A DNA stretch of 36,835 nucleotides from a virus, in the IMG/VR virus record IMGVR_UViG_3300045922_000457, positions 1 through 36,835 of that record, one strand, 5' to 3'. Made by a program: the position numbers and the translations under genes. Positions within the stretch are counted from its first letter, which is position 1. Each line of letters begins with the position of its first letter. The notes under the pieces are model-generated. The model was not told where the DNA came from. It saw nothing but the letters and a program-made list of their open reading frames with translations, and did no database searches. This document shows positions 1-36,835 of the stretch, in pieces.

Positions 1-608
1 TCAGTGATATAGTTTCCAGCAGGTTGCTTGTTATTAAAAACATTCCAATCTGCACTAGATAATTTACCGGTTGTTGTTGCAGATGCTATTGGAAGATTAA
101 ATGTGTGAGTATCAGATGCGGATACAATGTTGAAGTCTACTCCAGATGTTCCTGTAGTTAGAGTTTGAGAAGATCCAGTTTGAGAATTGATCGATTGAAC
201 CGATGATGGTAATGCTTCCCACTTAAGACCAGTTGTTTCTGAAGAATCTGCTTTTAAAAAATATCCATCTGCACCTACTGGCAGCCTTGAATCGCTTGTG
301 CTGAAAGTGAAAATATCACCTTTTGTTGTGAGTGGAGAAACAAAAGTCGTGCTAACCCATTGATTGTTTCCAGGACCAACCTTTACGAATACATCTCCGA
401 CTCCCATGCCTATTGATCCAATAGGAGCCGAAACACCAGAACCAATTCTAGGATCTACGTTTAAATCTATTATCTGTTTTGTTGATGAGTTTGAAACTTC
501 AATTCCACTAGCTGCTAAGTTTTTAGCCACACTTCCTTTGAAAATAAACGGTGAACCTGCATACGCACTTGTTGTTATCGCTATTAAGATTGAAATAAAC
601 TTTAGCAT
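1..608 (-). CDS. Exported tail-fibre-like protein, N-terminal part (split by window edge)
   Basis: The gene starts at ATG 608 and is still open at base 1 (202 full codons). Residues 1-17 look like a Sec signal peptide: Lys3, a hydrophobic core FISILIAITTS and an AYA cleavage motif. The rest is Ser/Thr/Gly-rich and carries a phrase common in phage-fibre-like repeats (SSADWNVFNNKQPAGNYIT, about residues 183-201). If the window ends are joined, the frame runs straight into the ORF ending at 35308, giving 711 aa. It follows the 250-aa gene by 9 bp, with an AGGGTG Shine-Dalgarno-like stretch. A signal peptide is odd for a virion protein assembled in the cytoplasm, so it may be exported or surface-displayed. 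Fibre-like is inference from composition and repeats. Confidence 0.75.
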   Translation of the reverse strand, partial: MLKFISILIAITTSAYAGSPFIFKGSVAKNLAASGIEVSNSSTKQIIDLNVDPRIGSGVSAPIGSIGMGVGDVFVKVGPGNNQWVSTTFVSPLTTKGDIFTFSTSDSRLPVGADGYFLKADSSETTGLKWEALPSSVQSINSQTGSSQTLTTGTSGVDFNIVSASDTHTFNLPIASATTTGKLSSADWNVFNNKQPAGNYIT

Positions 609-617
609 TTAATCACC

Positions 618-1370
618 CTAGTTATAAAAGTTAATCAAATTCTCACCAACTGTAGCATTACCAGATACAGCCCTAATTGAAATTCTAGAACCTGCTGGGA
701 TAATTAACGGAACACGACCATTTCCTCCTGGTGATATATAAAGAATCCTTGTCTCTGAAGATGGCGGCCCAATTCCAAGCTCCATAGTCTGACCACTAGA
801 ATCGAATATCTCTACCTCTGAAATATCTTGCGGAGTAGAAGCAATCAGCTGAGTCCACGAACTAGTGTTAACTGGAGTTCCAGAATAATCGTTTCTTGAA
901 TCTAAAACTTGAGTCTTACCCTTAACATCGACCTTCAAAACTCCGTTAGTATCAGTAGAAAGATAACGAAGATTAGTTCCATCATAACCACCAACCATAG
1001 TACCAGCAGATGGAGCAGGAGAGCCGTTCGATCCGTTTACTGGGTTTGTTGTAAACACTCTTATATCCCCATTTGAATCAACCAAAAACGGCGTGTAGTC
1101 CCCATCTGCAACTCCAGTTAATGGCCCAGGAGAATCTTTTCTAACACCAAGAACAGTAAGTCCTTTGTCGTTTACAGCATTTGGATCACCGATTGTCTTT
1201 GCTCCCTCGACGGTTACTGCACCAGGCGGTAAAGAAACATCAAGTGCATATTTCCCGCCACCAAGACTTGTTCCTGTTGCTGTTTTCTTCAGATTTGGAA
1301 GATCAATGGTATCTGCCTTAACCGCTGTGGCAGCTAAAACCATGATTGAAAAAAATATAAGCTGAATCAT
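618..1370 (-). CDS. Exported virion-like protein with C-terminal beta-sandwich-like domain (250 aa)
   Basis: Residues 1-19 form a plausible Sec signal (hydrophobic LIFFSIMVLAATAV, then VKA before Asp), though the n-region has no positive charge. The middle has phrases common in phage structural proteins, such as GVADGDYTPFLVDSNGDIRV and a YDGTNLRYLSTDTNG stretch. The last ~85 residues resemble the whole body of the upstream 117-aa protein: VNTSSWTQL matches VNTTNWQEL, and SISIRAV matches AIYVRAV, so this looks like a duplicated domain. The start overlaps the upstream stop as ATGA. Its exact role is unknown; the neighbours suggest a tail or surface component working with the fibre-like protein. 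Confidence 0.75.
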   Translation of the reverse strand: MIQLIFFSIMVLAATAVKADTIDLPNLKKTATGTSLGGGKYALDVSLPPGAVTVEGAKTIGDPNAVNDKGLTVLGVRKDSPGPLTGVADGDYTPFLVDSNGDIRVFTTNPVNGSNGSPAPSAGTMVGGYDGTNLRYLSTDTNGVLKVDVKGKTQVLDSRNDYSGTPVNTSSWTQLIASTPQDISEVEIFDSSGQTMELGIGPPSSETRILYISPGGNGRVPLIIPAGSRISIRAVSGNATVGENLINFYN

Positions 1371-1720
1371 TTTCTACCTCTCAGTAAATTTAGTGTCAGC
1401 ATTCCTTGGTCGGCAGTAGTGTCCACTGCTCTAACGTAAATGGCAAGACCCCTGCTTAGTGCTGTTTTTAACTTACCGAACCTTCCAGCAGCGATTAATG
1501 CTATTCGATTAATTGCGTATGGTGGGCTAGATTGTCCAGATACACCAACACCAATCTCAACAACAGATCCAGATTCATTCTTGAATTCTATTGCGTTTAT
1601 ATCATCTTTCATTATTTGTGTTGTTGAAGAGTTTTCATTAACAAGAGTGAGTTCTTGCCAGTTTGTTGTGTTTACGTTTGTAGCACCAAAATCGTGAGTG
1701 GTTGTTTGAGAAACCTGCAT
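1367..1720 (-). CDS. Small virion-like protein, paralogue of the next gene's C-terminal domain (117 aa)
   Basis: This is a beta-rich 117-aa protein without signal peptide. It aligns by eye with residues ~165-250 of the 250-aa protein downstream: a VNTxxW start, a central E-I/L-G-V/I-G strand and an I-x-V/I-RAV strand near the end. Sharing one domain between an exported and a non-exported neighbour suggests duplication, with one copy later fused to a signal peptide and linker. It is translationally coupled to the next gene by an ATGA overlap. No family name can be given; a head or tail accessory role is inferred only from position in the late operon. Confidence 0.7.
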   Translation of the reverse strand: MQVSQTTTHDFGATNVNTTNWQELTLVNENSSTTQIMKDDINAIEFKNESGSVVEIGVGVSGQSSPPYAINRIALIAAGRFGKLKTALSRGLAIYVRAVDTTADQGMLTLNLLRGRK

Positions 1721-1725
1721 TTATT

Positions 1726-2037
1726 TTATTCCTCTTCTTTTCGAAGTCTCATTCTATAATTTACAGATTGCTTTGGACTAGGCATCATGCTTTCTGGTCG
1801 TCCTTCTTCAATAGAAATTCTTTTTCTCAAGTTGATTCTGTCTCGGATTCTCTCAGCGTCCTCGTATTCCTTTTTAATTTCCATTCCTTTTTTAAAGTCC
1901 ATGAAGGTAACAGAACCAACTTTTTTCATTTCCACTTCGCCGTTGGAGTTATGGCCTTTTTGGACATATTCATCCTTGGCAAAGTGTCCTAAGTGTTTAT
2001 AAAGTGGGCCTTTTAATTGTTGGCATTTTGGTTTCAT
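1726..2037 (-). CDS. Charged protein of unknown function (103 aa)
   Basis: The protein is Lys/Glu/Arg-rich with a probable helical stretch in the second half (EIKKEYEDAERIRDRINLRK) and no membrane segment. Three in-frame ATGs lie at 2046, 2043 and 2037. I chose 2037 because the AGAAAGGA Shine-Dalgarno motif is then 8-9 nt upstream, whereas it would be too close to the other two. It sits between a 57-aa gene and the 117-aa virion-like gene in the late operon. I do not recognise it. Confidence 0.65.
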   Translation of the reverse strand: MKPKCQQLKGPLYKHLGHFAKDEYVQKGHNSNGEVEMKKVGSVTFMDFKKGMEIKKEYEDAERIRDRINLRKRISIEEGRPESMMPSPKQSVNYRMRLRKEEE

Positions 2038-2042
2038 AATCA

Positions 2043-2216
2043 TCATCCTTTCTTCTGCTTGAAGTAGGTTCCGTTATTCTTCTTTTGAAGCTCGGAAATC
2101 TCCCTTCTAGCAGTTTTTAAATCAATTGGTGCGTAGGACTTTCTTTCAATCTTAGGCTTTGGTTCTGGTTTGACAACAAAAATATCTGTGTTTTTTACGT
2201 TCTTACCTTTCTTCAT
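2043..2216 (-). CDS. Small basic protein (57 aa)
   Basis: This short reading frame starts at ATG 2216, 14 nt inside the end of the small-terminase gene, and ends in a TGA that abuts the start cluster of the next gene. The product is Lys-rich (KKGKNVKN at the start, FKQKKG at the end). The tight overlaps at both ends and unbroken operon structure are the main evidence that it is real. The frame is preceded by GAAGAAAGG-type purines that could serve as ribosome binding site. Function unknown. Confidence 0.6.
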   Translation of the reverse strand: MKKGKNVKNTDIFVVKPEPKPKIERKSYAPIDLKTARREISELQKKNNGTYFKQKKG

Positions 2217-2826
2217 AAAAATCCTTCAACTCATCAATAGTAGAATGCTCAACTTCTATTGCATTTTCTTTTGCTTTTTTAAGCTCGTCAAAGACATCTG
2301 CAATAATTGTTGTTTTTTGCTCAATCATTTCTCTTGGCTTACCAAGAGCACGGTCCATCATTTGTTTTGCGGCTTCAAGCCTTACAGTGCTTTTTTCCTT
2401 TTCAGAAGTCATAATGCTGTAGGTAGTAGCAACCGCTTCTGGAAGGATCTTTGTAAAGATTTGATCCATTTGTTTTTTAATTACTTCTGTTGAAAGTCGA
2501 TCTACTTCGCTTTTGATGCTACGAGAGGCAAGTGCTCTTCGGACTGTGCTTACTTGGCAGTTCAATTGTTTTGCGATGGTTGTGTCGTTAAAGCCGATTG
2601 ATGCGTAATAAATAACCATTCTGTAGAAGTGTTCTCTTCTATGGTCTAAGTCTTGTATCTTGGTTAATGACTGGGCCATTGTATCCAGTCGTTCGATGAT
2701 CTTTTCTTGAGTATCACCAAGTTTTGCGGCTAATGCTGCACTCTTTCCGAGTGCTTCCATAATTGGACGTTCTTTTCGGTATCTAACTCTTGTTTCTACC
2801 TTTTTACTCGGTTTTTTATCATTCAT
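2203..2826 (-). CDS. Terminase small subunit-like DNA-binding protein
   Basis: The 207-aa product carries a helix-turn-helix-like stretch (FNDTTIAKQLNCQVSTVRRA) preceded by a charged helical region and followed by a long helical tail. This resembles small terminases, which recognise the packaging site and hand DNA to the large subunit. I start at ATG 2826, which has GAGG 7 nt upstream. The same frame opens at 2922, but that would add a Cys-rich leader with a poor ribosome site. It is the first gene of the late unit. In circular layout it lies upstream of large terminase with the fibre and lysis genes between. Another HTH regulator is possible; identification rests on motif and position. Confidence 0.6.
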   Translation of the reverse strand: MNDKKPSKKVETRVRYRKERPIMEALGKSAALAAKLGDTQEKIIERLDTMAQSLTKIQDLDHRREHFYRMVIYYASIGFNDTTIAKQLNCQVSTVRRALASRSIKSEVDRLSTEVIKKQMDQIFTKILPEAVATTYSIMTSEKEKSTVRLEAAKQMMDRALGKPREMIEQKTTIIADVFDELKKAKENAIEVEHSTIDELKDFYEER

Positions 2827-3066
2827 TTTAAACCTCGTAGGGCCAAAAAAATCTGCCCTTGCACCGTTTGATACCTCATCCGTAAGGCATTGGAGACAAA
2901 CAAGCACAAAGGCAGAACTCATTTGGAAGGTCTAGGAACCCCATAAGGGGCACACATGACTTAATGTAAGTTTTACATTCTATCTCCCAAAATGACACTA
3001 TATAATTTTTACCATTTATTTTTTATATATTACAATTCTCACAATGATGATTCATAATCACCAGCC
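2827..3066. promoter_or_regulatory. Divergent early/late control region
   Basis: About 240 bp separates the late unit (minus) from the first early gene (plus). On the plus strand, TATAAT at 3001-3006 is a good -10, with only a weak -35 upstream; its start point would be near 3013. The block 3000-3035 is very AT-rich and has TAATAT/TATAAA on the minus strand, fitting a late promoter there. Two perfect palindromes flank the -10: 2963-2979 (AATGTAA, GTT, TTACATT) and 3048-3060 (TGATT, CAT, AATCA). A small CCCC-ATAA-GGGG hairpin lies at 2939-2950. No regulator can be assigned. Confidence 0.5.
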
Positions 3067-3390
3067 ATGAATAACAACCCAAAATACAAATCTTACACGC
3101 CGAATTGTAATGCTTGTTCAGATGTCGGGGTAATCTTGGTCGATGCCGAGTCTCCAGATACCGCTCCATACGCGTTTAAATGCTCGTGCGCGATGGGAAT
3201 GATTAAGTATAGTGCTTTACCCTCTGTTGGACAAATCTATCGTAGAATCAAAAAAGAAGACGGTACGTGGGCAAATCAAGCAAAAGACGTCAATCCAAGC
3301 TACAAACGATCTACCGCCCCCTTCGACAACACCCAAGCCATCGTTCGTAAACCGTCTTTCGTCATCAATGATGAAGATTTAATTTTTTAA
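3067..3390 (+). CDS. Putative zinc-ribbon protein (107 aa)
   Basis: This is the first early gene. The N-terminal half has a four-cysteine pattern, Cys14-x2-Cys17 and Cys39-x-Cys41, spaced like a zinc ribbon. The C-terminal half is basic and polar with no obvious fold. No clear Shine-Dalgarno sequence precedes ATG 3067. The gene is separated from the other early genes by about 1.4 kb, so it probably forms its own transcript from the TATAAT at 3001, ending at the plus-strand terminator-like hairpin at 3450-3528. Function unknown; nucleic-acid binding is a guess from the ribbon. Confidence 0.6.
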   Translation: MNNNPKYKSYTPNCNACSDVGVILVDAESPDTAPYAFKCSCAMGMIKYSALPSVGQIYRRIKKEDGTWANQAKDVNPSYKRSTAPFDNTQAIVRKPSFVINDEDLIF

Positions 3391-3398
3391 ATTTCTCT

Positions 3399-3442
3399 AA
3401 AAAAAAGAATACCCATCTTGAGTTTTATCCCGAGATGGGTAT
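3399..3442 (-). terminator. Strong intrinsic terminator for a minus-strand transcript
   Basis: Read on the minus strand, a perfect 10-bp stem (ATACCCATCT with AGATGGGTAT, loop of 14 nt) is followed after TC by eight T residues. No minus-strand gene lies just upstream, so it either ends a minus-strand RNA coming from 3450-4200 or blocks antisense transcription into the divergent promoter. Confidence 0.65.
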
Positions 3443-3449
3443 GATATGG

Positions 3450-3528
3450 ACTAACAGGATTGCTAGACCCAGAATAAGGCTTCGATGCCTGAGATTCAAT
3501 AGCAATCTTGTTGGTTGCTTATTTTTTT
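3450..3528 (+). terminator. Terminator-like long hairpin for the first early gene
   Basis: ACTAACAGGATTGCT (3450-3464) pairs with AGCAATCTTGTTGGT (3501-3515): 15 pairs, two of them G-U if read as plus-strand RNA. A small inner hairpin AGGC/GCCT lies at 3477-3490. TGCTTA and then seven T residues (3522-3528) follow. The G-U pairs and T tract both favour plus-strand use. The 36-nt loop is long for a terminator, so it may instead be part of the structured RNA that follows. Confidence 0.5.
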
Positions 3529-3539
3529 GGGGTACTCCT

Positions 3540-3804
3540 TGTGGTGCCCACAGTGCGGTGAGATGACTGAAATCGAACGTAGCCGCATGGGATCGAAAGA
3601 TCCTCCTGGCTTGTGCCAGTAGCATAGCTTGAAGAGTAAGGTCCTCGTTCAAGCACACAGGGGCCAGACCGATAGCCGACCGACCGACGTGGTCAGAAAG
3701 TTATCGAGTAAGTATTCGGGACGGGAGTCGTTAAATCGACGGTAATAGTGCCATGACACCTACAGAGAGGTAACTCTGGCACCCCCAAGGGGATCCAGAC
3801 CACC
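3540..3804 (+). ncRNA. Candidate structured non-coding RNA, hairpin-dense
   Basis: Hairpins follow one another almost without gaps. They are 3540-3552 (TGTGG/CCACA), 3553-3588 (GTGCGG/CCGCAT), 3589-3604 (GGGATC, GAAA tetraloop, GATCCT), 3606-3619 (CTGGC/GCCAG), 3627-3654 (GCTTGAA and GAG paired with CTC and TTCAAGC), 3727-3740 (GTCG/CGAC) and 3748-3782 (GTGCCA/TGGCAC with inner ACCT/AGGT). GTGGTC 3689-3694 can pair with GACCAC 3798-3803 and enclose the last two. A GNRA loop and several G-U pairs favour the plus strand; the minus-strand terminator at 3399-3442 argues the other way. It resembles no RNA I can name. Comparison with large phage RNAs such as GOLLD and ROOL is warranted. Confidence 0.45.
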
Positions 3805-4046
3805 CACCCGTAAGTCCTTACAAAAGACCATACGCACCTGCTGGAAGGACGAACATAAAAATAAAATCACACACTAAGTAGTCTTTTTTAGCCATCCCTC
3901 CGCCTCCCTCCCTCCGTGGTCAGGATTACCAGTACTAGGCTGTGTGGTAGCTTGATGGCGGCTTTAATGGAGGTTTTGAATTAGGCTATACTTTAAGTAT
4001 TTGGCTTGAATTCTGTCCTTTGGTTGAATTTAAAAAAAAGAACTTT
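3805..4046. other. Non-coding stretch with polypyrimidine tract and possible long-range helix
   Basis: No gene is supported here. There is a T6 run at 3883-3888, a pyrimidine tract of CCCTCC units at about 3893-3916, and a near-palindrome ATACTT-T-AAGTAT around 3988-4000. GGCTATACTTTA near 3985 is almost complementary to TAAAGTATAACC near 4175, which could close a ~190-nt RNA domain; the one mismatch would be G-U on the minus strand. TATACT at 3987-3992 could alternatively be a plus-strand -10 with a poor -35. Confidence 0.35.
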
Positions 4047-4150: not shown

Positions 4151-4366
4151 ACTATGAATGATGTCCCACTTACCTAAAGTATAACCAAACACTTTGCACA
4201 ATGTGACCAATGCTAAAACCCATAGGCATGGATCGGGGGGGATATTCCCCCACTCTCACACCCCGCGGGCACGCATGGCAAGGTGGTGCCCCCCTGGGGG
4301 GGTTGATGGTGTGCTTAGGGGTTAGGTTTGTGGGGTTGGATTTTGGGAGGGGGGGTGCTTTTTTGG

Positions 4367-4629
4367 TTACGCATGGGGTTTTGGGGCTTGGGATTCCTTG
4401 GGGGAAGTGAGTGGGTTGTTACGCATGGGGTTTAGGCTTGTGGGTGTTTGGGCTAGTTTGGTTAAGGCTTGGGGGGTTAGGCGCTTGGGTTGGGTTCGGG
4501 GCTTGGCTTCGGGGCTTGGCTTAGGGGTTTTGGCTCTGTGTTACGCTGTGTGTTAGTAAGAGGGTACACTATCCTCAGGCGCTGGGGTTTACCCATGGGG
4601 GTTATGTAAGTGGGTTACCCATTGGGGTT
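4367..4629 (+). repeat. Four iteron-like repeats, TTAC(G/C)CAT(G/T)GGG(G)GTT
   Basis: Copies lie at 4367-4380 (TTACGCATGGGGTT), 4419-4432 (same), 4589-4603 (TTACCCATGGGGGTT) and 4615-4629 (TTACCCATTGGGGTT), all in one orientation. Their start spacings are 52, 170 and 26 bp. Same-orientation short repeats in a non-coding region beside replication genes are typical of initiator-binding iterons, but no initiator protein is recognised in the window. Confidence 0.5.
4495..4520 (+). repeat. 13-bp perfect tandem duplication
   Basis: TTCGGGGCTTGGC occurs twice in immediate tandem (4495-4507 and 4508-4520), followed by TTAGGGG. It lies within the G-rich block and may reflect replication slippage or a repeated binding site. 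Confidence 0.7.
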
Positions 4630-4797
4630 AGTACGAGGGCTACCCCGTTCGTTACACTCACTCTGATGGCGGCTGTGGGTTGGGTTTAGCTTATGGGTGT
4701 TGTGTGTAGTGTCAAGTAAAAAGTGTGGTTATTGGGTTTTTTGGGGGCTTAATTGGAACGCGGCGCATTGGTTGGAATGGGTTTTTTAAAAAAATGC

Positions 4798-4826
4798 TTG
4801 CATTGGTTGTGTAAATGGTGTAATGT
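4798..4826 (+). promoter_or_regulatory. Early promoter with twin GTGTAA motif (copy 1)
   Basis: TTGCAT (4798-4803) lies 17 bp from TAATGT (4821-4826). Between and overlapping these are GTGTAAATG and GTGTAATG (4809-4825), a direct repeat with a 9-nt period. The same twin motif precedes the 89-aa gene and the clamp-like gene. It is placed just before the ribosome site of the first pentapeptide-repeat gene. Confidence 0.5.
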
Positions 4827-4848
4827 TGTAACTGAAAAGGAGGCAAAA

Positions 4849-5544
4849 ATGGCTATACAGTTAAAAAACAAAAATGGTGACGTAATCTACTCTGCTGACG
4901 CCGATAACATAGAGAATGCAATCGTCATGGCGTTGAAAGATGAAGTCGATCTTTCTGGTATTGATTTAAGGGGTCAAAAAATCTACAACCTTCACCTGAA
5001 AAATGTTGACCTAAGTGGTGTAGATTTTTCTGGTGCCTTGCTTGCTGGATGCGAACTATTTAATTCTAATCTGGATGATTCAAACTTCAATAATGCTATA
5101 CTTAGGGGTTGTTCGTTTAATCGCTGCATCATTAGAAGATGCTCTTTTGTTGAATCCGAACTAATAGGATCAGACTTTTATGACTCTTATTTTGTGGGGT
5201 CACGTTTTGAAAATTCTTCCATTGAACGCTGTAGCGTTGAGTTTTCTAATCTAGAAGAGTGTGACATGTTCTTAGTTGACTTAAGTCATTCAAGTTTTTA
5301 CTCGAGTAATTTGTCTTACTCTTCAATGAGAGAAACATACGGAGAAATGGTTAATTTCAACGACGCGAATCTAACCAATTGTGATTTTACGGAGTGTAAT
5401 TTTCTAGATGCTTCTTTTGATGGAGCCAAACTAGAGGGGGCAAACTTTAAGGACGCTGAGATTTATTGCGATGAAATTGATCTTTTAAGTCAAAAAAACA
5501 AACTTAAAAACGTAAAAAACAGCGAATCAATTATTTTTGGTTGA
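4849..5544 (+). CDS. Pentapeptide-repeat protein 1 (231 aa)
   Basis: Residues ~33-205 are made of five-residue repeats of the A(D/N)LXX type, for example DLSGVDFSGALLAGC and the region around NFNNAILRGC, predicting a right-handed beta-helix. Pentapeptide-repeat proteins such as Qnr and MfpA mimic DNA and bind gyrase. A DNA-mimic or anti-defence role is inferred here because the ArdC-like gene follows two genes later and a paralogue lies beyond it. The short N-terminal region (QLKNKNGDVIYSA) is shared with that paralogue. The start is ATG 4849 with AAGGAGG 5 nt upstream; the frame extends to 4753 without a good ribosome site. The protein is unusually Cys-rich and acidic in places. Confidence 0.85.
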   Translation: MAIQLKNKNGDVIYSADADNIENAIVMALKDEVDLSGIDLRGQKIYNLHLKNVDLSGVDFSGALLAGCELFNSNLDDSNFNNAILRGCSFNRCIIRRCSFVESELIGSDFYDSYFVGSRFENSSIERCSVEFSNLEECDMFLVDLSHSSFYSSNLSYSSMRETYGEMVNFNDANLTNCDFTECNFLDASFDGAKLEGANFKDAEIYCDEIDLLSQKNKLKNVKNSESIIFG

Positions 5545-5877: not shown

Positions 5878-6678
5878 ATGGAAAAGATTAAAATAGACAT
5901 GAGCGGGCTTCTCGCCGAAGCCGTATCGAAGCCTGGAATGATACTAGAAGCCTATTCGGCTTTTACTGGCCGATATTCAATCGGTAACCGACTTTGGGCA
6001 ATGCGGCAATGTGTCGAGCGTGGAATTCCAGTCGCGCCCATAGGGACTTTCAAGTTTTGGGAGTCCAAGGGACGACGCGTTAAGAAGGGCGAAAAGGCTT
6101 TATCCTTACTTGTGCCAGTAAAAATCAAAAAAAAAGACGAAAACGGAGAAGAGACTGACGAGAGTTTTGTGCTATTTAGGGCGGTAAACCGTTTTTTTAC
6201 CATGCACCAAACGGAGGGAGAAAATTACACGCCCGAATCTTTTGGTGAATGGAATCGTGACACCGCGCTTAAAAATCTCAATATCAATTTAGTAACTTTC
6301 GAGCATATGAACGGAAACGTGCAAGGTTATGCTTCTGGTAGAGATATCGCAATTAATCCAATGGCGCAATTACCGCATAAAACACTATTCCACGAGATTG
6401 CGCACGTCATTCTTGGCCACACCGATATCGAAGCGCATGACTCTTTCAATACGCCTAGAAATATCAAGGAAGTCGAGGCTGAAAGTGTAGCGCTCATTTG
6501 TTGTGAAGCATTGAAGCTTGAAGGTGCGGAGTATTGCCGAGGATATATTCAGAGTTGGCTTGGATCTAAAAATACTATTGAAGAAAAGTCGGCAAAACGC
6601 ATTTTTTCGGCTGCCAACAAAATCTTAGAAGCTGGCTACGAAAAAAGTGAAGAGGTCGAAAATGAAGACTGCGCTTGA
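5878..6678 (+). CDS. ArdC-like antirestriction protein with metallopeptidase motif
   Basis: The 266-aa product has an N-terminal region like ArdC (DUF1738-type) with FWESKGRRVKKGEKAL at about residues 60-75. A zincin-like domain follows: HEIAH at residues 172-176 (LFHEIAHVILGH), with a likely third zinc ligand in EVEAES (residues 198-203). ArdC proteins bind ssDNA and protect incoming DNA from type I restriction; in this phage it would act early in infection. The start at 5878 follows a modest AGGATG. It is flanked by two pentapeptide-repeat genes, which suggests a counter-defence island. A general ImmA/IrrE-like peptidase role is the alternative. Confidence 0.8.
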   Translation: MEKIKIDMSGLLAEAVSKPGMILEAYSAFTGRYSIGNRLWAMRQCVERGIPVAPIGTFKFWESKGRRVKKGEKALSLLVPVKIKKKDENGEETDESFVLFRAVNRFFTMHQTEGENYTPESFGEWNRDTALKNLNINLVTFEHMNGNVQGYASGRDIAINPMAQLPHKTLFHEIAHVILGHTDIEAHDSFNTPRNIKEVEAESVALICCEALKLEGAEYCRGYIQSWLGSKNTIEEKSAKRIFSAANKILEAGYEKSEEVENEDCA

Positions 6679-6810: not shown

Positions 6811-7524
6811 ATGAAAACTTTTGAATTGAGAAAAAAAGACGGTGAAATTCTCTTCCAAAAAGAAGCCTATAGTTTTGAGGATGCTTTATTTAACGCTTCA
6901 TTCTATGAAAAGGTGAATATTTCCGGAGCCGATTTAAGAAACAAAACACTTCGTTGCTTGAAGTTAAAAAACAATGACTTATCTGAAATTGACTTTTCAA
7001 ATTCGACGCTTGAAAACTGTTATTTTGATGGTTCTATTTTGAAAAAATGTAACTTTTCGAATGCAATAATCAGAAATTGCAATTTCAGTAATGCAAAGTT
7101 GTTAGAATGCAATTTCGATGGTTGCAAAATCTTTGGAACAGAATTCAAAGATTCAGAGCTTAAAAAAGCTAGTATCAATTACGCAATAGTTTACTCTTGC
7201 GATTTTGAAAATTCCAAAACGACAGAATCTATTATATCCTTCTCTGATCTATCTTTGTGTAATTTTGTAAGATCATATCTTTTAAAAACAAACATAAATG
7301 AATGCCATGGATTTAAGGTTTATTTTGAAAATGCCGACTTGTCAGAAAGTACTTTTAAAAAGTGCGTGTTCCACAAGCCTTCATTTAGAATGGCAAAAAT
7401 AAAAAATGCTAGTTTTGATGATATTAGAATCGATCTTTCTAGTGAGGTAGGAATTAATCACGCTAGAGCGTTCTTTTTAAACAATTCGAGATTTTGTGAA
7501 TATATGGTTTTCACAAAAGACTAA
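6811..7524 (+). CDS. Pentapeptide-repeat protein 2 (237 aa)
   Basis: This is a paralogue of the protein at 4849. It shares the N-terminal K-x-K-x-G-(D/E)-I-x pattern (MKTFELRKKDGEILFQ), the same spacing to the first repeat and about 30 pentapeptide repeats (NISGADLRNK, CNFSNAIIRNCNFSNAKLLE), predicting a beta-helix of about the same length. The two copies flank the ArdC-like gene, so one could have arisen by local duplication, followed by strong divergence. The ATG follows AAAAGGAG by 8 nt. DNA mimicry against gyrase or restriction enzymes is inference from the family and the context. Confidence 0.85.
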   Translation: MKTFELRKKDGEILFQKEAYSFEDALFNASFYEKVNISGADLRNKTLRCLKLKNNDLSEIDFSNSTLENCYFDGSILKKCNFSNAIIRNCNFSNAKLLECNFDGCKIFGTEFKDSELKKASINYAIVYSCDFENSKTTESIISFSDLSLCNFVRSYLLKTNINECHGFKVYFENADLSESTFKKCVFHKPSFRMAKIKNASFDDIRIDLSSEVGINHARAFFLNNSRFCEYMVFTKD

Positions 7525-13711: not shown

Positions 13712-13871
13712 CATATTGATATGGGTTTTGGCTATATTAATTTGGGTTTTGGTTCCGGTAGGTTGCACTTCGGTTCCAAAACCGGACAGGCGTGAAATTA
13801 AAGAGATTCCTTATGTTTTTAGCTGCGAATTGAGAATGCAAGGTGGACACAAGGTGTACATATGCCCATAA
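13683..13871 (+). CDS. Small lipoprotein A (62 aa)
   Basis: The N terminus has Lys2, then a long hydrophobic segment (FHIFDILIWVLAILIWVL) ending in a lipobox-like VPVGC, so mature protein should start at Cys28 as an outer- or inner-membrane lipoprotein. The short mature part ends in SCELRMQGGHKVYICP, a Cys-x-GGH-x-IC hairpin shared with the lipoproteins at 34137 and 35168. It is unusual to find one within early genes. It could be an exclusion or spanin-like factor. The start overlaps the upstream gene by 29 bp. Confidence 0.65.
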   Translation: MKTLIFHIFDILIWVLAILIWVLVPVGCTSVPKPDRREIKEIPYVFSCELRMQGGHKVYICP

Positions 13872-14605
13872 ATAAACCTTTAGATAAAGAGCTGGTAGAA
13901 AAGGTTTTATGTCTCGCCAAAGAGATGAATGGAAAACAAATAGCTGAAAATCTTGGAATTAATACCAATAGGGTTTGGTATATTCTAAAGAAGTATAATG
14001 TTAAGCCCAAGAAAACCCACCACAGAGATATCTCTCAAGTTTTAGAGATTGTTAGATATTGCAAAATCCACAAAAGAAAAAAGACTCTTGAGAAGTTTGG
14101 GATTACAAAACATCAGCTTCAACGTTGTCATATCAGGTATAAAAAAATTCAAAAGAAATTCATTGAGCGCGAGCCACAGCTGAGACAGGCGGCGTTTTCT
14201 TACGCTTTTGTGAAAGAGAATTGCTTAAAAGAAACCGCGGAAGAGTTTGCATCTTATTGCGTTGAAAAGTTCATTGAAAAAGATAAAGGAGTTTTCTTTG
14301 AAACGGCATTTGCTGATTTCATGCGTGAGCGCGTTGGAAGAGTTGGAACCGCCAAGAGCGAAGCCAATAAAGCTACATTAAGCATTCTTGAAAAGGAAGT
14401 TTCCTACACAATGAATGACGAAGGATCTGTTTACGATTTACTGCCAAAAACACTGAACGGATTACTAGTAGCCCTCGTTTACAAATACGGGCTTACAAAA
14501 AGAGAAATAGCGCAACATCTTGGAGTTACTGAATCTGCCGTTGGGATTAGAATTAATAGAACAATAGAAAGGATGAGAGAGCAATATGGAAGAAGTTTGG
14601 CGTGA
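13862..14605 (+). CDS. Sigma-like transcription regulator with two HTH motifs
   Basis: The 247-aa protein has an N-terminal HTH (MNGKQIAENLGINTNRVWYI, residues 22-41) and a C-terminal one (LTKREIAQHLGVTESAVGIR, about 211-230) that closely resembles sigma-70 region 4. The helical middle (FVKENCLKETAEEFASYCVE) is loosely like region 2. AAGGTG precedes ATG 13862. It sits near the end of the early unit, where a late-gene switch would be expected, and the late unit has no recognised phage RNA polymerase. I infer a late sigma or activator; a non-sigma HTH regulator is the alternative. Confidence 0.55.
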   Translation: MPINKPLDKELVEKVLCLAKEMNGKQIAENLGINTNRVWYILKKYNVKPKKTHHRDISQVLEIVRYCKIHKRKKTLEKFGITKHQLQRCHIRYKKIQKKFIEREPQLRQAAFSYAFVKENCLKETAEEFASYCVEKFIEKDKGVFFETAFADFMRERVGRVGTAKSEANKATLSILEKEVSYTMNDEGSVYDLLPKTLNGLLVALVYKYGLTKREIAQHLGVTESAVGIRINRTIERMREQYGRSLA

Positions 14606-14969
14606 TGTAAACGGTTTTTCTAATTACAAAGTAAGCAACACCGGACTTGTAAAAAGGTGTGAGATGACCGCTGTTTATTACAGGCAGTCAGAAAAATACA
14701 AATGGAAAGATAATAAAGCAGAGACGCATTATCCAGAAATAATACTTAAGCCTTGTTTAAAAATTGGTTACGGAAAAGATCCTGTTGTAAGACTTAGAAA
14801 CAGTAAAGGAGTTTATGTTTTTAGAAAGGTTTGCAGGCTTGTTTCAGAGTCATTTCTTGGTACATCAAATGTTAATCATAGGGATGGGAACAGGTGGAAT
14901 AACTCTGTTGAAAATTTAGAGGTAGAAAATGGAAAACAGCAATACTACATTTATAAAAAACAAGTATGA
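14586..14969 (+). CDS. HNH homing-type endonuclease with NUMOD4 motif
   Basis: The 127-aa product opens with EEVWRDVNGFSNYKVSNTG, a NUMOD4-type DNA-binding start. It ends in an HNH core NHRDGNRWNNSVENLEV (residues 97-113), with the usual Asn-His-Arg-Asp and Asn-Asn-x-x-x-Asn-Leu pattern. Such free-standing endonucleases nick or cut DNA at specific sites and spread between phages. It overlaps the sigma-like gene by 20 bp, so it is well settled in the operon and may have been co-opted. Confidence 0.85.
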   Translation: MEEVWRDVNGFSNYKVSNTGLVKRCEMTAVYYRQSEKYKWKDNKAETHYPEIILKPCLKIGYGKDPVVRLRNSKGVYVFRKVCRLVSESFLGTSNVNHRDGNRWNNSVENLEVENGKQQYYIYKKQV

Positions 14970-21459: not shown

Positions 21460-23490
21460 TTAAGACCTCCTTATTGGGGTTATTGAGTAATAATTTGAAC
21501 CATCAATCATAAATACACTTCCAGTGCTTGCCCATAGAGATACAGCAATTTGTACTCTACCACCCGTTAATAAAAGGTTTTTTCCTCTAATCAATAAACT
21601 ATTGGTAATGGTTACCGGAGCATTACTACCAGGAGAGGTTGTGACTGAGTAGTTCATGTTTGAGCTCTTTCTTGCAAGGAAGTTCGCACCAGCCAAAGAG
21701 AAAGTTGACTCTCTAACAAGACAATTTATAGTAAAACCACTTGATGCATGTCTTGCAGTTATTTGGAATGTAAATAAATAATCGCTATTTGGATCAATAG
21801 CATAAGAAAGAGTTAAAAAATCACTAGGTGATGTTGGTAGTGGTGCCGCATCGAATAATGCGTTACTACATAGTACAGGCTCGTAATGTTTTCCTGTAGT
21901 ATAAAACAACGAACTACTGCTTGCTAATTGTAGCTGAGAAATAGGCATGCTTCCTGGTTGGATATAATCATTTAAAAATAAGAAATCATCTATCAAGCAA
22001 CTGGATACGTTATGAGACAAGTATCCGCTTGTTGATACATAGTTTTCAAAAGAATAAACCGCAACACTTCCGGAAGAAGAAGGGCTAAACCCAATAGACA
22101 CATCATTCCCTGGGGCTGAGTCACCAGAAATCAGAGGTAAGCTTGCTGCTTTTTCACCGTCTATAAAGAGATGTGCAGTATAATTATTTATTGCTAATGT
22201 ATACTCTCTTATTATAGATGTGTCTATTGGTACAAACAGAACCCTGGCATCATTGAAGTCATCAATTGCAACTCCACCTCTTGTGAAGCATAGAAAAACC
22301 GTTCTTTGAACTGAGGCATCTTTACATCTAATTCTAAACCCAGTGTTTGCAGCTGATACAGACGTGTTGTCGTTAATTGCGTCAACCCTAATTACAGCTT
22401 TTACTATAGTCCATACACTTGGTGAACCCATTGCTACTTGTGGTGAGTTTGAAGTTAAAGTTGTCGATGCAGCAGAAAAAGTATTGTACTGTGATAAAAA
22501 ATTTAATAGTGACCCAGAAACAGTAAATCCAGTCGGTGTTGCTGTATTCATCATTGCTACGCTGGAGTTTGCAACTGAAGATGGATCATATTCACCATTC
22601 ACATAACCAAGAACGTTAGATCCAAAATGCATAGATCCTTGGAAATTATCTGGAATATTGAATGTGCCATTTGTTATCTGTGTTCCTTCTTGAACTCCAT
22701 TTACATAAAGATTAACCTTTCTGCTTCCTGGTGGAAGAGAGCCATCAACAGATACAAGTACATGAACCCATTGACTACCCAAAACAACGCTTGTTCCAGT
22801 TATTGAGATAATTTCTTTTTTTGTGCTAGATGAAGCCGTTGTTGAAGCAAAAGAAAACTTAATCTTTCCTTCAATTGTTACGCTTATTTGTCCCATTACG
22901 CCTGGTATTGTCACAAGCGGCTTGTCGGCTAAGGGATTTTTAAACCAAAATCCAATTGAAAACTTTCTTCCATTAACTTGATAGAATTGTTGGCAAATAT
23001 TCTCGACACCAGGGCCTCCAACAATAAGGCTAGATGAACCAAACTTGCTGTCCGAACTAACTGGTACAATACATGATTTTTCTAATGTAGGGGTTAAGCT
23101 GTATGCGCCATTTTCGACTGACTCTTCAATAGAGTTAAATGTGTTTATTGTGTTTGACAAGATACCCTTTGATATAGAATTTACAATTGATTTTATGTTT
23201 GTTGCTGGAGCAATTGTGTAATTACTCTCTCCAGTAATAGACGAGATCATGTATCTAAGTCTTTTGATCTCATCTTCAACGCTTGAAGCATAATTTGTTG
23301 GACCAACTGGATGAGGGTTTGTCTGGGCAATTGCTTTTGTTGGATTGTAAACGTTGTTTATCGTTGAAGCACCCTCGACCTTTTCTGCAATCATGTTGTC
23401 TTTAACGGAAGAAAACTGATCATTCAGGTCTTCGTTGGTTAGAACCTCATCATCAACCCATGTTTTTGGAAGGTTAAATAAACCGCTCAT
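21460..23490 (-). CDS. Tail fibre / receptor-binding protein with LamG-like region (676 aa)
   Basis: The first ~30 residues (LPKTWVDDEVLTNEDLNDQF) match a common phage tail-fibre attachment start. The central part contains concanavalin/LamG-like segments (FSIGFWFKNPL, WVHVLVSVDG, VNLYVNGVQEG; then YTLAINNYTAHLFIDG), suggesting two carbohydrate- or surface-binding jelly rolls. It has no signal peptide, unlike the fibre-like protein across the window junction. It follows the tail hub gene, with GGAGGT before ATG 23490. This is the better candidate for the true virion receptor-binding protein. Confidence 0.75.
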   Translation of the reverse strand: MSGLFNLPKTWVDDEVLTNEDLNDQFSSVKDNMIAEKVEGASTINNVYNPTKAIAQTNPHPVGPTNYASSVEDEIKRLRYMISSITGESNYTIAPATNIKSIVNSISKGILSNTINTFNSIEESVENGAYSLTPTLEKSCIVPVSSDSKFGSSSLIVGGPGVENICQQFYQVNGRKFSIGFWFKNPLADKPLVTIPGVMGQISVTIEGKIKFSFASTTASSSTKKEIISITGTSVVLGSQWVHVLVSVDGSLPPGSRKVNLYVNGVQEGTQITNGTFNIPDNFQGSMHFGSNVLGYVNGEYDPSSVANSSVAMMNTATPTGFTVSGSLLNFLSQYNTFSAASTTLTSNSPQVAMGSPSVWTIVKAVIRVDAINDNTSVSAANTGFRIRCKDASVQRTVFLCFTRGGVAIDDFNDARVLFVPIDTSIIREYTLAINNYTAHLFIDGEKAASLPLISGDSAPGNDVSIGFSPSSSGSVAVYSFENYVSTSGYLSHNVSSCLIDDFLFLNDYIQPGSMPISQLQLASSSSLFYTTGKHYEPVLCSNALFDAAPLPTSPSDFLTLSYAIDPNSDYLFTFQITARHASSGFTINCLVRESTFSLAGANFLARKSSNMNYSVTTSPGSNAPVTITNSLLIRGKNLLLTGGRVQIAVSLWASTGSVFMIDGSNYYSITPIRRS

Positions 23491-33735: not shown

Positions 33736-34140
33736 CTAAACATAGTTCCAACGTCTATCTTTATCATCCCGTAAGTCAACATGGATCCACCCACGAGCTA
33801 AACCAATAGACTTAAAACCAGCTTTAACAGCTGCTTCTACCAACTCTTCAGTAGTTTTTCCATTCGACATTAAATCAACAGCACGACCTAGCTCATGTTG
33901 AGATACACCCTTAGCTGTTTGCTTTCCTTCTGACCTTAACTTCTCTTGTTGCTCCTTGCAACGATATGCACTTAAAATAATAATCGACTGGCCAAGCTCT
34001 TTTCTCATTAGGTCTAGCTTATTAAGAAGTTCGTCATCTACAATTGTTTCTCTGCAAGTCGGAAATGAACACTTACATCTAAACTCAACAGAATGAAAGT
34101 ATCTAGTGAGTTGAATTTTTTCTAATTTACCAAACTTCAC
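33736..34140 (-). CDS. M15-type peptidase, probable endolysin
   Basis: The 134-aa product has the zinc motif SQHELGRAVDL (His82, Asp89) and GWIHVDLR (His120, Asp122), plus AYRCKEQQEKL, the order found in M15_3-type D,D-carboxypeptidase/L-alanyl-D-glutamate peptidases. It would cut peptidoglycan peptides at lysis. It has no signal peptide, so it needs the holin-like genes in the same cassette for export. A Cys-rich N-terminal stretch (FRCKCSFPTC) could add zinc or structural binding. It overlaps the lipoprotein gene by 4 bp. Confidence 0.88.
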   Translation of the reverse strand: MKFGKLEKIQLTRYFHSVEFRCKCSFPTCRETIVDDELLNKLDLMRKELGQSIIILSAYRCKEQQEKLRSEGKQTAKGVSQHELGRAVDLMSNGKTTEELVEAAVKAGFKSIGLARGWIHVDLRDDKDRRWNYV

Positions 34141-34469
34141 AGATCACCTTCTTTAAGGTTGTTTCTCTTCACAAATTCTGATGCCGATTCCTTATTTGTC
34201 TTTCCCCAGTCTTTACACTTGGTGAGTAGCAAGAATATTTCATCGCGTGTTTCGCGAACCAAAACAACAGCTCCACGAAGCTGTTCATCAGTAGGATCAA
34301 GACACACACGGCTATTATCATCAAGAACTCTACAGACTTTCCCAAGCGAAACATCCATAATGTAGATCGGTCCATTGATCCTTGGTATCTTTGTATTCGG
34401 AAGTGAGCCGCAACTACTTGCGAAGCAAACGCTCAAGATCGCGCTGATCGCCTTGATCGACTTTTGCAA
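34137..34469 (-). CDS. Lipoprotein B in the lysis cassette (110 aa)
   Basis: I start at TTG 34469, not at ATG 34526, because GGAGG stands 6 nt upstream of the TTG. From there the product begins MQKSIKAISAILSVCFASSC, a typical lipoprotein signal with lipobox ASSC. The mature part carries KVCRVLDDNSRVCLDP, a Cys-hairpin like those of the two other lipoproteins, followed by a helical basic tail (ETRDEIFLLLTKCKDWGK). The position just before the endolysin suggests an outer-membrane spanin subunit (Rz1-like). The gene is nested over the end of the 72-aa gene. Confidence 0.7.
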   Translation of the reverse strand: MQKSIKAISAILSVCFASSCGSLPNTKIPRINGPIYIMDVSLGKVCRVLDDNSRVCLDPTDEQLRGAVVLVRETRDEIFLLLTKCKDWGKTNKESASEFVKRNNLKEGDL

Positions 34470-34632
34470 GTGCGTCCTCCATCTGCTTTTGTTTCCGTTT
34501 TCTTTCAAACTCAAGGTAGGCATCATATATGGCTTTAGCTATTGATAACAGCGTTGGTATGCTTTTTACTATTTTCCAAACACCCGATAGCCATGACATA
34601 TATGAGGCCGTTGTTGGTTTTGTTTCACTCAT
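34414..34632 (-). CDS. Small lysis-cassette protein with amphipathic N-terminal region (72 aa)
   Basis: Residues ~12-40 (MSWLSGVWKIVKSIPTLLSI) are hydrophobic-amphipathic and are followed by a highly charged helix (LEFERKRKQKQMEDALAK). This could be a peripheral membrane protein, an antiholin or the inner-membrane spanin partner of the lipoprotein that starts inside it. No clean transmembrane span is visible, so the role is undecided. Confidence 0.65.
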   Translation of the reverse strand: MSETKPTTASYMSWLSGVWKIVKSIPTLLSIAKAIYDAYLEFERKRKQKQMEDALAKVDQGDQRDLERLLRK

Positions 34633-35168: not shown

Positions 35169-35311
35169 TAGTTTAATTCTTTCACCGATTCTTTTTCCTT
35201 GCAAATAAAATGACCACCGCCAATTGGCTCGCACTTACTTGAGTCAACAAGGTAGCTCGAAGTCCCACACGATGACAGAATTAAAGCTGATAAGATTAGT
35301 AGGTATTTCAT
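35168..35311 (-). CDS. Short lipoprotein C (47 aa)
   Basis: It is too short for most gene callers. It starts at ATG 35311, with its ATG overlapping the fibre gene's TGA (ATGA), and stops in TAATG with the holin-like gene. The product begins MKYLLILSALILSSC, a lipoprotein signal peptide with a clear LSSC lipobox. The mature part carries KCEPIGGGHFICKE, which matches the Cys-x-GGH-IC hairpin of lipoproteins A and B. It may be a spanin-like or envelope-exclusion protein. Confidence 0.75.
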   Translation of the reverse strand: MKYLLILSALILSSCGTSSYLVDSSKCEPIGGGHFICKEKESVKELN

Positions 35312-36835
35312 AGTGAACCTCTTGGGCCGATGCACATAACCGATGCTCTTACATCATATGCAGGATCAGTTGTTAATCGTGCATATATGTTAAATACTGT
35401 TGGAGAAGACGGGACAATATCCATATTAACACCAGCATTGATTCCATTAGTAACAAAACAATTTGGCTGAGATGCAAATACTCCACTATTTATAGTCATT
35501 TGATAATTTCCTGTAGAACTTCTAGTAATTGAAGAAATCCAATTAGAAGTAGGCCTCAAAATAGCGCATGGACTTGATGTGCACGCAGTGTCGTCTGCAC
35601 TTCCAAACTCAGCACTCTCAATCCTAAGACTTCCAGCACTTAAGCTTGTTACACTTCCGACTAGGTTTGGTGCTGGGAGGGATTGGGAGAGTGGACGGAG
35701 ACCGAGTTGTATTGGCGTCCCATCACTTGCGCCATCACCAAAATACATTCCGCACCCTCCGGTTCCAGAATGTCTTCTTGCTACAACATAAAACTCTCTT
35801 GTTTGTGTGTTATTATAGGAAAAATTGGCTATATACGACGAAACCCACCTTGCATTTGTTCCTCCAAAATTCATAAAAATTTCTGGAGGAACAAACGATG
35901 TTCCATCCAAAATACTAAAATAGCAATTATTATCGCTACTAGTAAAAAGAGTGTTTCCTCCAGTAAAAAACGCTTCATAATCACCGGCCGGAAGATTTTC
36001 AAATCGAACACAAATTCTATTTGTATCTGAACATGGCCTTGCTCTTCCAATATAGCTTGCATAGTTTTGAAGGTTGGTAACAGTTAGTGGAGTTCTTGTG
36101 TTTACTGTAACAGAGTTTGAACTAACGTTACCAGACGATGTTGTATACTTCACAGAACCATAAACATTCTGCGTCTCAGGCCTTACAGCAATCTCTGATT
36201 GAAGTGGGTAGCGGTAGACTTCGATTGTTGTCGGACTGTCTGTTCCGCACTGTCCAGTACTCGAGGTTTCTTTGTAACCTTGCACATATATTGTCAAATC
36301 ATTTATTGCGTTTTGATAAATAATATTACCGCCAATCATCGGTACAATATCACTACCAGAGATATCATAAGTTCTGTTAAATTGAGCAAAATTTGTTCCG
36401 TCCGTAAACCTAAACTGACATCCATCGAAACTAGAAGCATTATGTCTTCCAAAAGAACCGATTCCTCTAAAAACATATTTTCCTGGCTTTTGATTAACCA
36501 TTCTAAAGCCTAACAAATTTGTTGTTGGTTGTAGCAAATCTCCAGTAACATTATAAACACATCCACTAGCTGTATAATTTATCCAAGTTCCTACCGTTGT
36601 AGTTCTAAAAGCACAATTAGAAATAACAACGGTGCCCAACAATTCCGCCTGCGCAACAGTTCCAACATTCCTTGCTAGCCCCAAGTAAACATCATCAATG
36701 TATAGAACAGGCTCATCAGCTGCTACACTTCTGATTCTTGCAGAAATATTCCCAGAAGTTGGTGCAACGAAATTTAAAGTCGTCCTAGTATATGTTGTCG
36801 AGCTAGTAATAGTTTGACTTGCAATAACGTTTGTT
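35308..36835 (-). CDS. Exported Cys-rich fibre-like protein, C-terminal part (continues from 1..608)
   Basis: The frame is open from the right window edge to TGA 35308. In this strand the first base completes codon GAA begun at bases 2-1, so the joined gene has 711 codons plus stop. The product is Ser/Thr/Asn/Gly-rich with about a dozen cysteines, many spaced as likely disulfide pairs (GQCGT, DTACTSSPC, GGCGM), unusual for a cytoplasmic assembly protein but normal for an exported one. The CTSSPC and WISSITRSSTGNY phrases recall surface proteins of predatory bacteria such as Bdellovibrio. No internal start is needed if the genome is circular. This may be a displayed adhesin or a virion fibre. 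Confidence 0.8.
   Translation of the reverse strand, partial: TNVIASQTITSSTTYTRTTLNFVAPTSGNISARIRSVAADEPVLYIDDVYLGLARNVGTVAQAELLGTVVISNCAFRTTTVGTWINYTASGCVYNVTGDLLQPTTNLLGFRMVNQKPGKYVFRGIGSFGRHNASSFDGCQFRFTDGTNFAQFNRTYDISGSDIVPMIGGNIIYQNAINDLTIYVQGYKETSSTGQCGTDSPTTIEVYRYPLQSEIAVRPETQNVYGSVKYTTSSGNVSSNSVTVNTRTPLTVTNLQNYASYIGRARPCSDTNRICVRFENLPAGDYEAFFTGGNTLFTSSDNNCYFSILDGTSFVPPEIFMNFGGTNARWVSSYIANFSYNNTQTREFYVVARRHSGTGGCGMYFGDGASDGTPIQLGLRPLSQSLPAPNLVGSVTSLSAGSLRIESAEFGSADDTACTSSPCAILRPTSNWISSITRSSTGNYQMTINSGVFASQPNCFVTNGINAGVNMDIVPSSPTVFNIYARLTTDPAYDVRASVMCIGPRGSL

Follow-up and report, generated by a model that had tools for sequence, protein, structure and literature searches.

We propose that the phage studied here carries a late-expressed cassette of exported, lectin-tipped fibres that resemble the MAT (mosaic adhesive trimer) fibres with which Bdellovibrio holds on to prey, and that become attached to the phage's virions, a chain to which, taken as a whole, we give a probability of roughly 0.4. 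The record, IMGVR_UViG_3300045922_000457 of IMG/VR, is 36,835 nt long and was analysed over its full length, referred to below as the window. Judged from their sequences, phage-borne, Sec-exported, MAT-like lectin fibres appear to be a real variant that we did not find described: a search of literature outside most subscription journals, including the accessible parts of PMC10769870, PMC12309495, PMC3556154 and PMC3391216, returned no description of Sec-exported fibres of tailed phages or of phage-borne relatives of MATs, and phage DGR proteins are without detectable signal peptides according to PMC6199706. The fibres seem to leave the cell interior by a route that is not known for tail fibres.

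The window has a podovirus-like gene set, with TerL, portal (head-tail adaptor), capsid and endolysin recognised using PHROGs, and contains no terminal repeat in its 36,835 nt. On the minus strand at the left end the order is a TerS-like gene, genes for proteins of 106, 117 and 250 aa (the last referred to as SP-250) and the start of a fibre gene (ORF A); on the same strand the right end opens with a further open frame (ORF B), followed by small membrane and lipobox proteins, endolysin, TerL and portal (Table 1). The lipobox protein is presumably spanin-like. The best explanation of this arrangement is that the ends of the window fall inside a late-expressed cassette running TerS, 106-aa protein, 117-aa protein, SP-250, signal-bearing fibre A, a gap, fibre B, lysis genes and TerL. 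A separate tail fibre lacking an export signal, which the original prediction had put at 21460-23490, is real and contains a Laminin_G_3 domain. Two pentapeptide-repeat proteins lie in the early region (4753-5544 and 6811-7524, plus strand; PF00805, E 2e-29 and 3e-22), and an ArdC N-terminal-like protein, a possible anti-restriction factor, is encoded at 5878-6678 (plus strand; PF08401, E 6e-8). A NUMOD4/HNH endonuclease-like protein (14586-14969, plus strand) adjoins a protein with sigma-70 region 4-like and HTH matches (13862-14605, plus strand), and the DNA at about 4200-4700, between two gene blocks, is unusually G-rich and apparently non-coding. No Rfam match was obtained in the window.

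Table 1. Positions of the fibre cassette, its predicted signals and domains, and other genes discussed in the text (window coordinates)
Feature	Position	Strand	Basis or remark
ORF A, N-terminal 202 aa of predicted exported fibre, 0 Cys	3..608	-	runs off left window end; homologues in L002, L007
Sec-type signal of A, MLKFISILIAITTSAYA followed by GSP	558..608	-	rule-based
SP-250, 250 aa, predicted exported, 0 Cys	618..1370	-	C-terminal domain paralogous to signal-free 117-aa neighbour
Probable Sec-type signal of SP-250, MIQLIFFSIMVLAATAVKA followed by DTID	1314..1370	-	n-region without K/R
117-aa protein, signal-free	1367..1720	-	stop overlaps SP-250 start (ATGA); shares SP-250 C-terminal domain
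Terminase small subunit-like	2203..2922	-	upstream of fibre cassette; PHROGs
Tail-fibre-like protein, 676 aa, signal-free, 7 Cys, Laminin_G_3	21460..23490	-	Pfam domain and signal rule
M15 endolysin	33736..34140	-	downstream of ORF B, lysis block 33736..34526
Lipobox protein	34137..34526	-	downstream of ORF B, same lysis block
ORF B, C-terminal 508 aa of second Cys-rich fibre, 12 Cys	35308..36834	-	enters from right window end; N-terminus outside window
B, C-terminal cap domain (CTSxPC...C...C)	35311..35679	-	no Pfam, PDB or genome match
B, second Cys-containing domain, same profile family as the first	35671..36174	-	profile
B, first TNF/C1q-like domain, homologous to Bd2734 MAT tip (8OKW)	36184..36669	-	sequence, profile, fold
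B, truncated end of NPGFE-type domain	36670..36834	-	cut by window end

The original prediction described a single 711-aa fibre with both a Sec signal and about a dozen cysteines, a protein made by joining frames from opposite ends of the contig and not supported by our comparisons. Both features exist, but not in the same protein: the signal is on ORF A, and the cysteines, exactly 12 in number, are all in ORF B at 35308-36834, outside the segment 1-1370 to which they had been assigned. The homologue of A in a related contig, L002, is complete at 475 aa and is 94% identical over 202 aa; that in L007 has 1031 aa. At the DNA level, window bases 1319-1 correspond to L002 9483-10801 at 91.7% identity (1,319 nt), and the match resumes at window 36835-36810, equivalent to L002 11992-12017 at the end of that contig. 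Between the two breakpoints (L002 10801 to 11992) lie 1,190 nt comprising the rest of the 475-aa fibre and the start of the next gene (MKKLITFILAISFNANA followed by S), whose NPGFE-type domain runs into the right-end sequence of the window; L009 likewise matches from the right end of the window onward. A figure of about 1.2 kb for the gap between A and B is the value for L002 and need not hold for the window. Among 23 relatives searched by blastp, homology to the first residues of B begins at homologue residue 115 or later in all 17 with a match, so that the relatives have extra protein upstream. Since both L002 breakpoints fall on the window ends, there is no terminal repeat and the relatives have this upstream protein, the cysteine-free A and the 12-Cys B most likely belong to two separate genes; that both breakpoints should coincide with the contig ends has hardly any explanation other than that the contig stops there. 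The reading frame is open across the join, but it is very improbable that the 711-aa fibre is real and reflects a deletion relative to L002 coinciding with the contig ends of a circular genome, as this has to contend with the same breakpoints and lack of a repeat and with a join that would halve the NPGFE domain, which is whole in relatives.

The joined reading was used for early searches and dropped on the evidence of the L002 breakpoints and the upstream protein in relatives; the searches hold for its pieces. Pfam gave no match for the joined A/B protein, SP-250 or the 117-aa protein, and the part contributed by A matched one significant PHROGs family, phrog_32934, of unknown function. Cultured phages, chiefly those of Microcystis and Microbacterium, matched the joined protein over short stretches of its middle region only, and two relatives of B had no match among them.

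Sec signals had been predicted on both window proteins, and a home-made rule with lenient and strict versions (not SignalP) was used to call them. That of A is a clear Sec-type signal which passes the rule cleanly, whereas that of SP-250 is probable but weaker, failing the strict version for lack of K or R before the core. A 4-nt overlap (ATGA) with the 117-aa gene upstream pins down the start of SP-250; the overlap is conserved in L007 and replaced by GTGA in L002, and the 117-aa protein and the C-terminus of SP-250 are the same domain (32% identity, E 3e-10). A diverged SP-250 signal is kept in L002, L007 and L009, with identities in the signal and in the next 60 residues of 37% and 92%, 28% and 79%, and 17% and 68%, respectively; for A the corresponding values between window and L007 are 41% and 80%. 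Altogether, seven of nine pairs of A or SP-250 homologues display 17-41% identity in the signal and 66-92% in the next 60 mature residues, the exceptions being A of the window and L002 (same signal) and SP-250 of L002 and L007 (67%). Similarly, five B proteins (L029, L059, L060, L061, L063) have an identity of 0.29 in the signal versus 0.67 over the first 18 mature residues, and in these, with cleavage sites read by eye, an AxA-type site directly precedes mature starts of the LNEVDK...F.KNLL type. Read from such sites, the signals are 16-24 residues long, lengths that fit the cleaved Sec signals of diderms. The export signals can thus be taken as real on grounds of conservation, their sequences differing yet persisting in relatives with the cleavage motif right before conserved mature starts, and export of these proteins by Sec is well supported as a prediction. 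B itself is credited with a signal on the strength of those in its relatives. Structure prediction for SP-250 gave a low-confidence model (mean pLDDT 48.5) that matched no PDB entry at or below E 0.001, and no fold is claimed for this protein.

Queries with the two phage domains of B uncovered a family of such fibres. The C-terminal cap domain was present at 11 loci, one of which is the record of L009, and the NPGFE domain at 14, nine of them new phages. By the lenient rule 9/11 cap-domain proteins and 9/9 of the new NPGFE-domain proteins carry signals, giving 18/20 complete B-type proteins, or 19/21 B-type proteins with a visible N-terminus when the truncated B of L002 is added; the signal-free exceptions are L026 and L028. 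The strict rule found signals in 17/21 fibres (A and B types) compared to 23/285 other ORFs of at least 100 aa in the same loci (Fisher p 1e-13, the rows not being independent), many of the 23 being lipobox proteins or additional members of these cassettes. Failures under this rule were L042/L044 (the signal-free pair), L059 and L062; the L046 fibre was removed from the strict count by the script's overlap filter, and L053, whose ORF starts at a contig end, was excluded from signal counts. Two or three signal-bearing fibre-like proteins occur in tandem in L030/L045, L033/L048, L066, L051 and L049. With genes named largely by eye, the fibre locus is preceded by tail or baseplate genes together with a signal-free fibre and followed by holin, spanin or lysin genes, and the records with B-type fibres include baseplate-bearing, tape-measure-bearing and podovirus-like phages. 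TerL, portal and capsid of L002 show no significant blastp similarity to those of the window (E 1.2, 0.14 and 0.36), although the two share the cassette at about 92% DNA identity, and the cassette therefore moves between virion types.

Cysteine richness, originally put forward as a reason to expect export, is a weak argument by itself, since L026 (12 Cys) and L028 (14 Cys) lack a signal; both have the same architecture and locus position as the signal-bearing fibres. Thioredoxin-like genes lie right downstream of the two signal-free Cys-rich fibres (L042 8375-8725, L044 8398-8880), each followed by a DUF6171-like protein with 6 Cys, and of 23 records only these two matched PF00085, one of them above the cut-off. 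A repeated link between thioredoxin and signal loss was considered and rejected, as the pair shares its locus by descent and hence represents one event; a further scan revealed no third thioredoxin-bearing case. Other fibre-like proteins with signal-like starts occur in different-looking phages (L012 9062-10627 and L006 5484-8165), of which L012 looks Bacteroidota-like by eye, and exported fibres may extend beyond the present family. L002 also encodes an 864-aa TerL-like protein that by eye appears to contain an intein (1317-3911).

The joined protein matched one PDB sequence, 8OKW (phmmer E 0.00098; 0.0007 for B alone), and a profile built from ten phage domains (A7) had 8OKW as its sole match up to E 1, at 7.1e-29. 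For the structure predicted for B (mean pLDDT 65.5; 80-90 over most of the first domain), Foldseek ranked 8OKW first (E 1.6e-8). In the VIA comparison this model matched 8OKW with Z 18.0 and 2.0 A over 138 residues, followed by TNF-like lectins at Z about 11, on a list that spans mainly model residues 60-212 and barely tests the rest of B. Neither the cap domain (A4) nor the fibre of L007 had a meaningful PDB match. According to PMC10769870, 8OKW covers the segment 691-843 of Bd2734, one of the MAT fibres that Bdellovibrio bacteriovorus makes; the same text gives all 21 MATs a signal peptide with a conserved, beta-rich domain of about 130 aa after it, reports tagged MATs detected on the predator surface, depicts the TNF-like tips of Bd2439 and Bd2734 with disulphides, and lists PDB entries for MATs that are C-terminal regions only. 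Since these tips are shown with disulphides, cysteine pairs are plausible in B by analogy, and the homology to exported surface fibres of Bdellovibrio adds fresh support to the view that such proteins act outside the cytoplasm. Two MAT features are thus represented, a signal peptide (by rule, on A in the window and on the 19 of 21 B-type relatives) and an adhesive tip fold (in B, that of the TNF-like Bd2734 tip). However, B does not end in its tip, which is followed by a second such domain and the cap domain, and with these two features compared we do not file B as a MAT; on sequence grounds it resembles MATs in being an exported lectin-tipped fibre and probably works like one.

Mainly from the MAT homology and a layout shared with the cultured Bdellovibrio phage phi1422 (NC_019525), we infer tentatively that the host of the window phage is a Bdellovibrio-like predator. 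In phi1422 a signal-free tail fibre, gp67, is followed by gp68 (614 aa, 8 Cys, signal MKFMIAFIIALFSVTMATA before Q) and then by the holin-like gp69, and gp75 is a further small signal-bearing protein. By blastp gp68 is weakly linked to the B-type family (L053 5e-5, L061 2e-4), and the N-terminal domain profile of the signal-free members (A10) matches it at E 3.4e-7; the TNF-like domain and the A5 profile had no match in gp68. In the other tailed Bdellovibrio phage examined, phi1402, neither the tail collar protein nor the neighbouring fibre-like protein has a signal. Among 399 ORFs of the window and 23 loci, those matching phi1422 came from four loci (L002, L047, L048, L066) and none from the window, so that few genes are shared; a single window ORF was matched, weakly and over a short stretch, by phi1402. 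For TerL and capsid, the similarities to cultured phages were too remote to identify a host. In two pattern scans covering 84,980 genomes, no genome was confirmed to carry the cap or NPGFE domain, but the patterns were narrow and aimed at these domains, and such a failure does not show that hosts lack them.

In the chain that we propose, the fibre proteins would be made late with the structural and lysis proteins, as the operon position and ATGA overlap suggest, exported by Sec with cleavage after AxA, a prediction well supported by sequence, and then folded, disulphide-bonded and probably trimerised in the periplasm, a step modelled on the MAT tips. We regard these three steps together as probable. 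The holin would then open the membrane, and the fibres would meet virions and attach through their short conserved mature N-termini or through the domain shared by SP-250 and the 117-aa protein, whose overlapping genes could encode a docking pair; on a Bdellovibrio-like predator they would then act as receptor fibres that bind glycans. Given the earlier steps, the odds that this final one takes place on the virion rather than off it are about even. Broadened to the family, the proposal becomes rather doubtful: that unrelated tailed phages of Bdellovibrio-like predators send receptor fibres out by Sec, oxidise and trimerise them in the periplasm and join them to finished virions only at lysis, using lectin tips from a gene pool shared with predator MATs, with the signal-free branch of L026/L028 kept cytoplasmic beside its own thioredoxin gene.

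Virion placement is suggested by the position of the genes in the fibre locus, as expected of tail fibres, by signal-free L026 and L028 in that same locus, with their N-terminal profile matching gp68, and by the domain that the predicted exported SP-250 has in common with the signal-free 117-aa protein. It is opposed by the fact that tailed virions assemble in the cytoplasm, so that export would part fibre from virion; a tail fibre would be made in the cytoplasm with no export signal, which is not what we see. Against the chain as a whole, the SP-250/A segment does not travel with matching virion genes (L002 versus the window), no signal of B's own is present in the window, that of SP-250 has no n-region charge, the fibre-like proteins of phi1402 are signal-free, and gp68, with no TNF-domain match, is a weak link. 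There is a substantial possibility that the exported lectin fibres act off the virion, binding envelope glycans of the infected predator or bdelloplast debris and masking receptors, which would block superinfection or stop progeny sticking to debris, or sitting on the surface like host MATs. The Sec signals, the occurrence of the cassette in phages with unrelated virions, the cost of export for a virion protein, and a nearest solved relative that is the tip of a surface-displayed host adhesin (PMC10769870) all fit such a role. However, the fibre sits in a structural and lysis operon with signal-free members at the same locus. In 18 loci, themselves partial, signal-free genes carried no convincing second copy of the tip domains (two short matches, both marginal at E 0.008-0.009), which speaks against a fibre that simply duplicates a virion tip in soluble form. 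By a narrow margin we favour assembly onto virions at lysis over off-virion action; the original prediction had likewise allowed for both, as display on the infected cell or an unusual way of assembly.

Two further explanations keep the fibres on ordinary virions. The N-terminal segments may be hydrophobic anchors, docking segments or inert, rather than cleaved Sec signals; the uncharged n-region of SP-250, two relatives without any signal and the status of export as a prediction would all be accommodated. This is nonetheless unlikely, as the signals diverge while AxA-type sites stay right before conserved mature starts, at lengths that match cleaved diderm signals. Alternatively, host MAT genes may have been recruited as ordinary virion fibres in which the signal is a mere relic, in keeping with the homology to the MAT tip. 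This is very unlikely, since the signals are kept in nearly all of these divergent members, and since most of the protein looks phage-type, with cap and NPGFE domains that the pattern scans confirmed in no genome.

Should the fibres reach virions, the assembly of tailed phages would extend beyond the cytoplasm, and phages could make use of adhesins that depend on disulphides; should they act elsewhere, exported lectins would form a large class of phage proteins that has been overlooked. In both cases the connection with MATs bears on the origin of the prey-recognition fibres of Bdellovibrio, and the choice between virion and off-virion action is directly testable in cultured phi1422.

Among known systems, ordinary tail fibres resemble the proteins described here in having a gene between structural and lysis genes, as in the case of T7 gp17, and in C-terminal swapping between relatives, but are not known to carry a Sec signal. 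The lectins BC2L-C (2WQ4) and PLTL (9IB7) share the TNF-like fold (Z about 11), but are bacterial proteins with 11-13% identity and a much weaker match than 8OKW. Phage phi1422, for which the host is known, has the same succession of signal-free fibre, Cys-containing signal-bearing fibre and holin-like gene; unlike the window phage it is a myovirus, and its gp68 is annotated only as hypothetical and has no detected TNF-like domain. The MATs, and Bd2734 (8OKW) in particular, share with the phage proteins a Sec signal (on A and the relatives of B), a modular fibre-like build, a homologous TNF-like tip (profile E 7e-29, Z 18) with conserved cysteines, and swapped C-termini. They differ in that the phage fibres are encoded in a late operon and in that B has its TNF-like domain inside the chain, in two copies, ahead of a cap domain of another kind.
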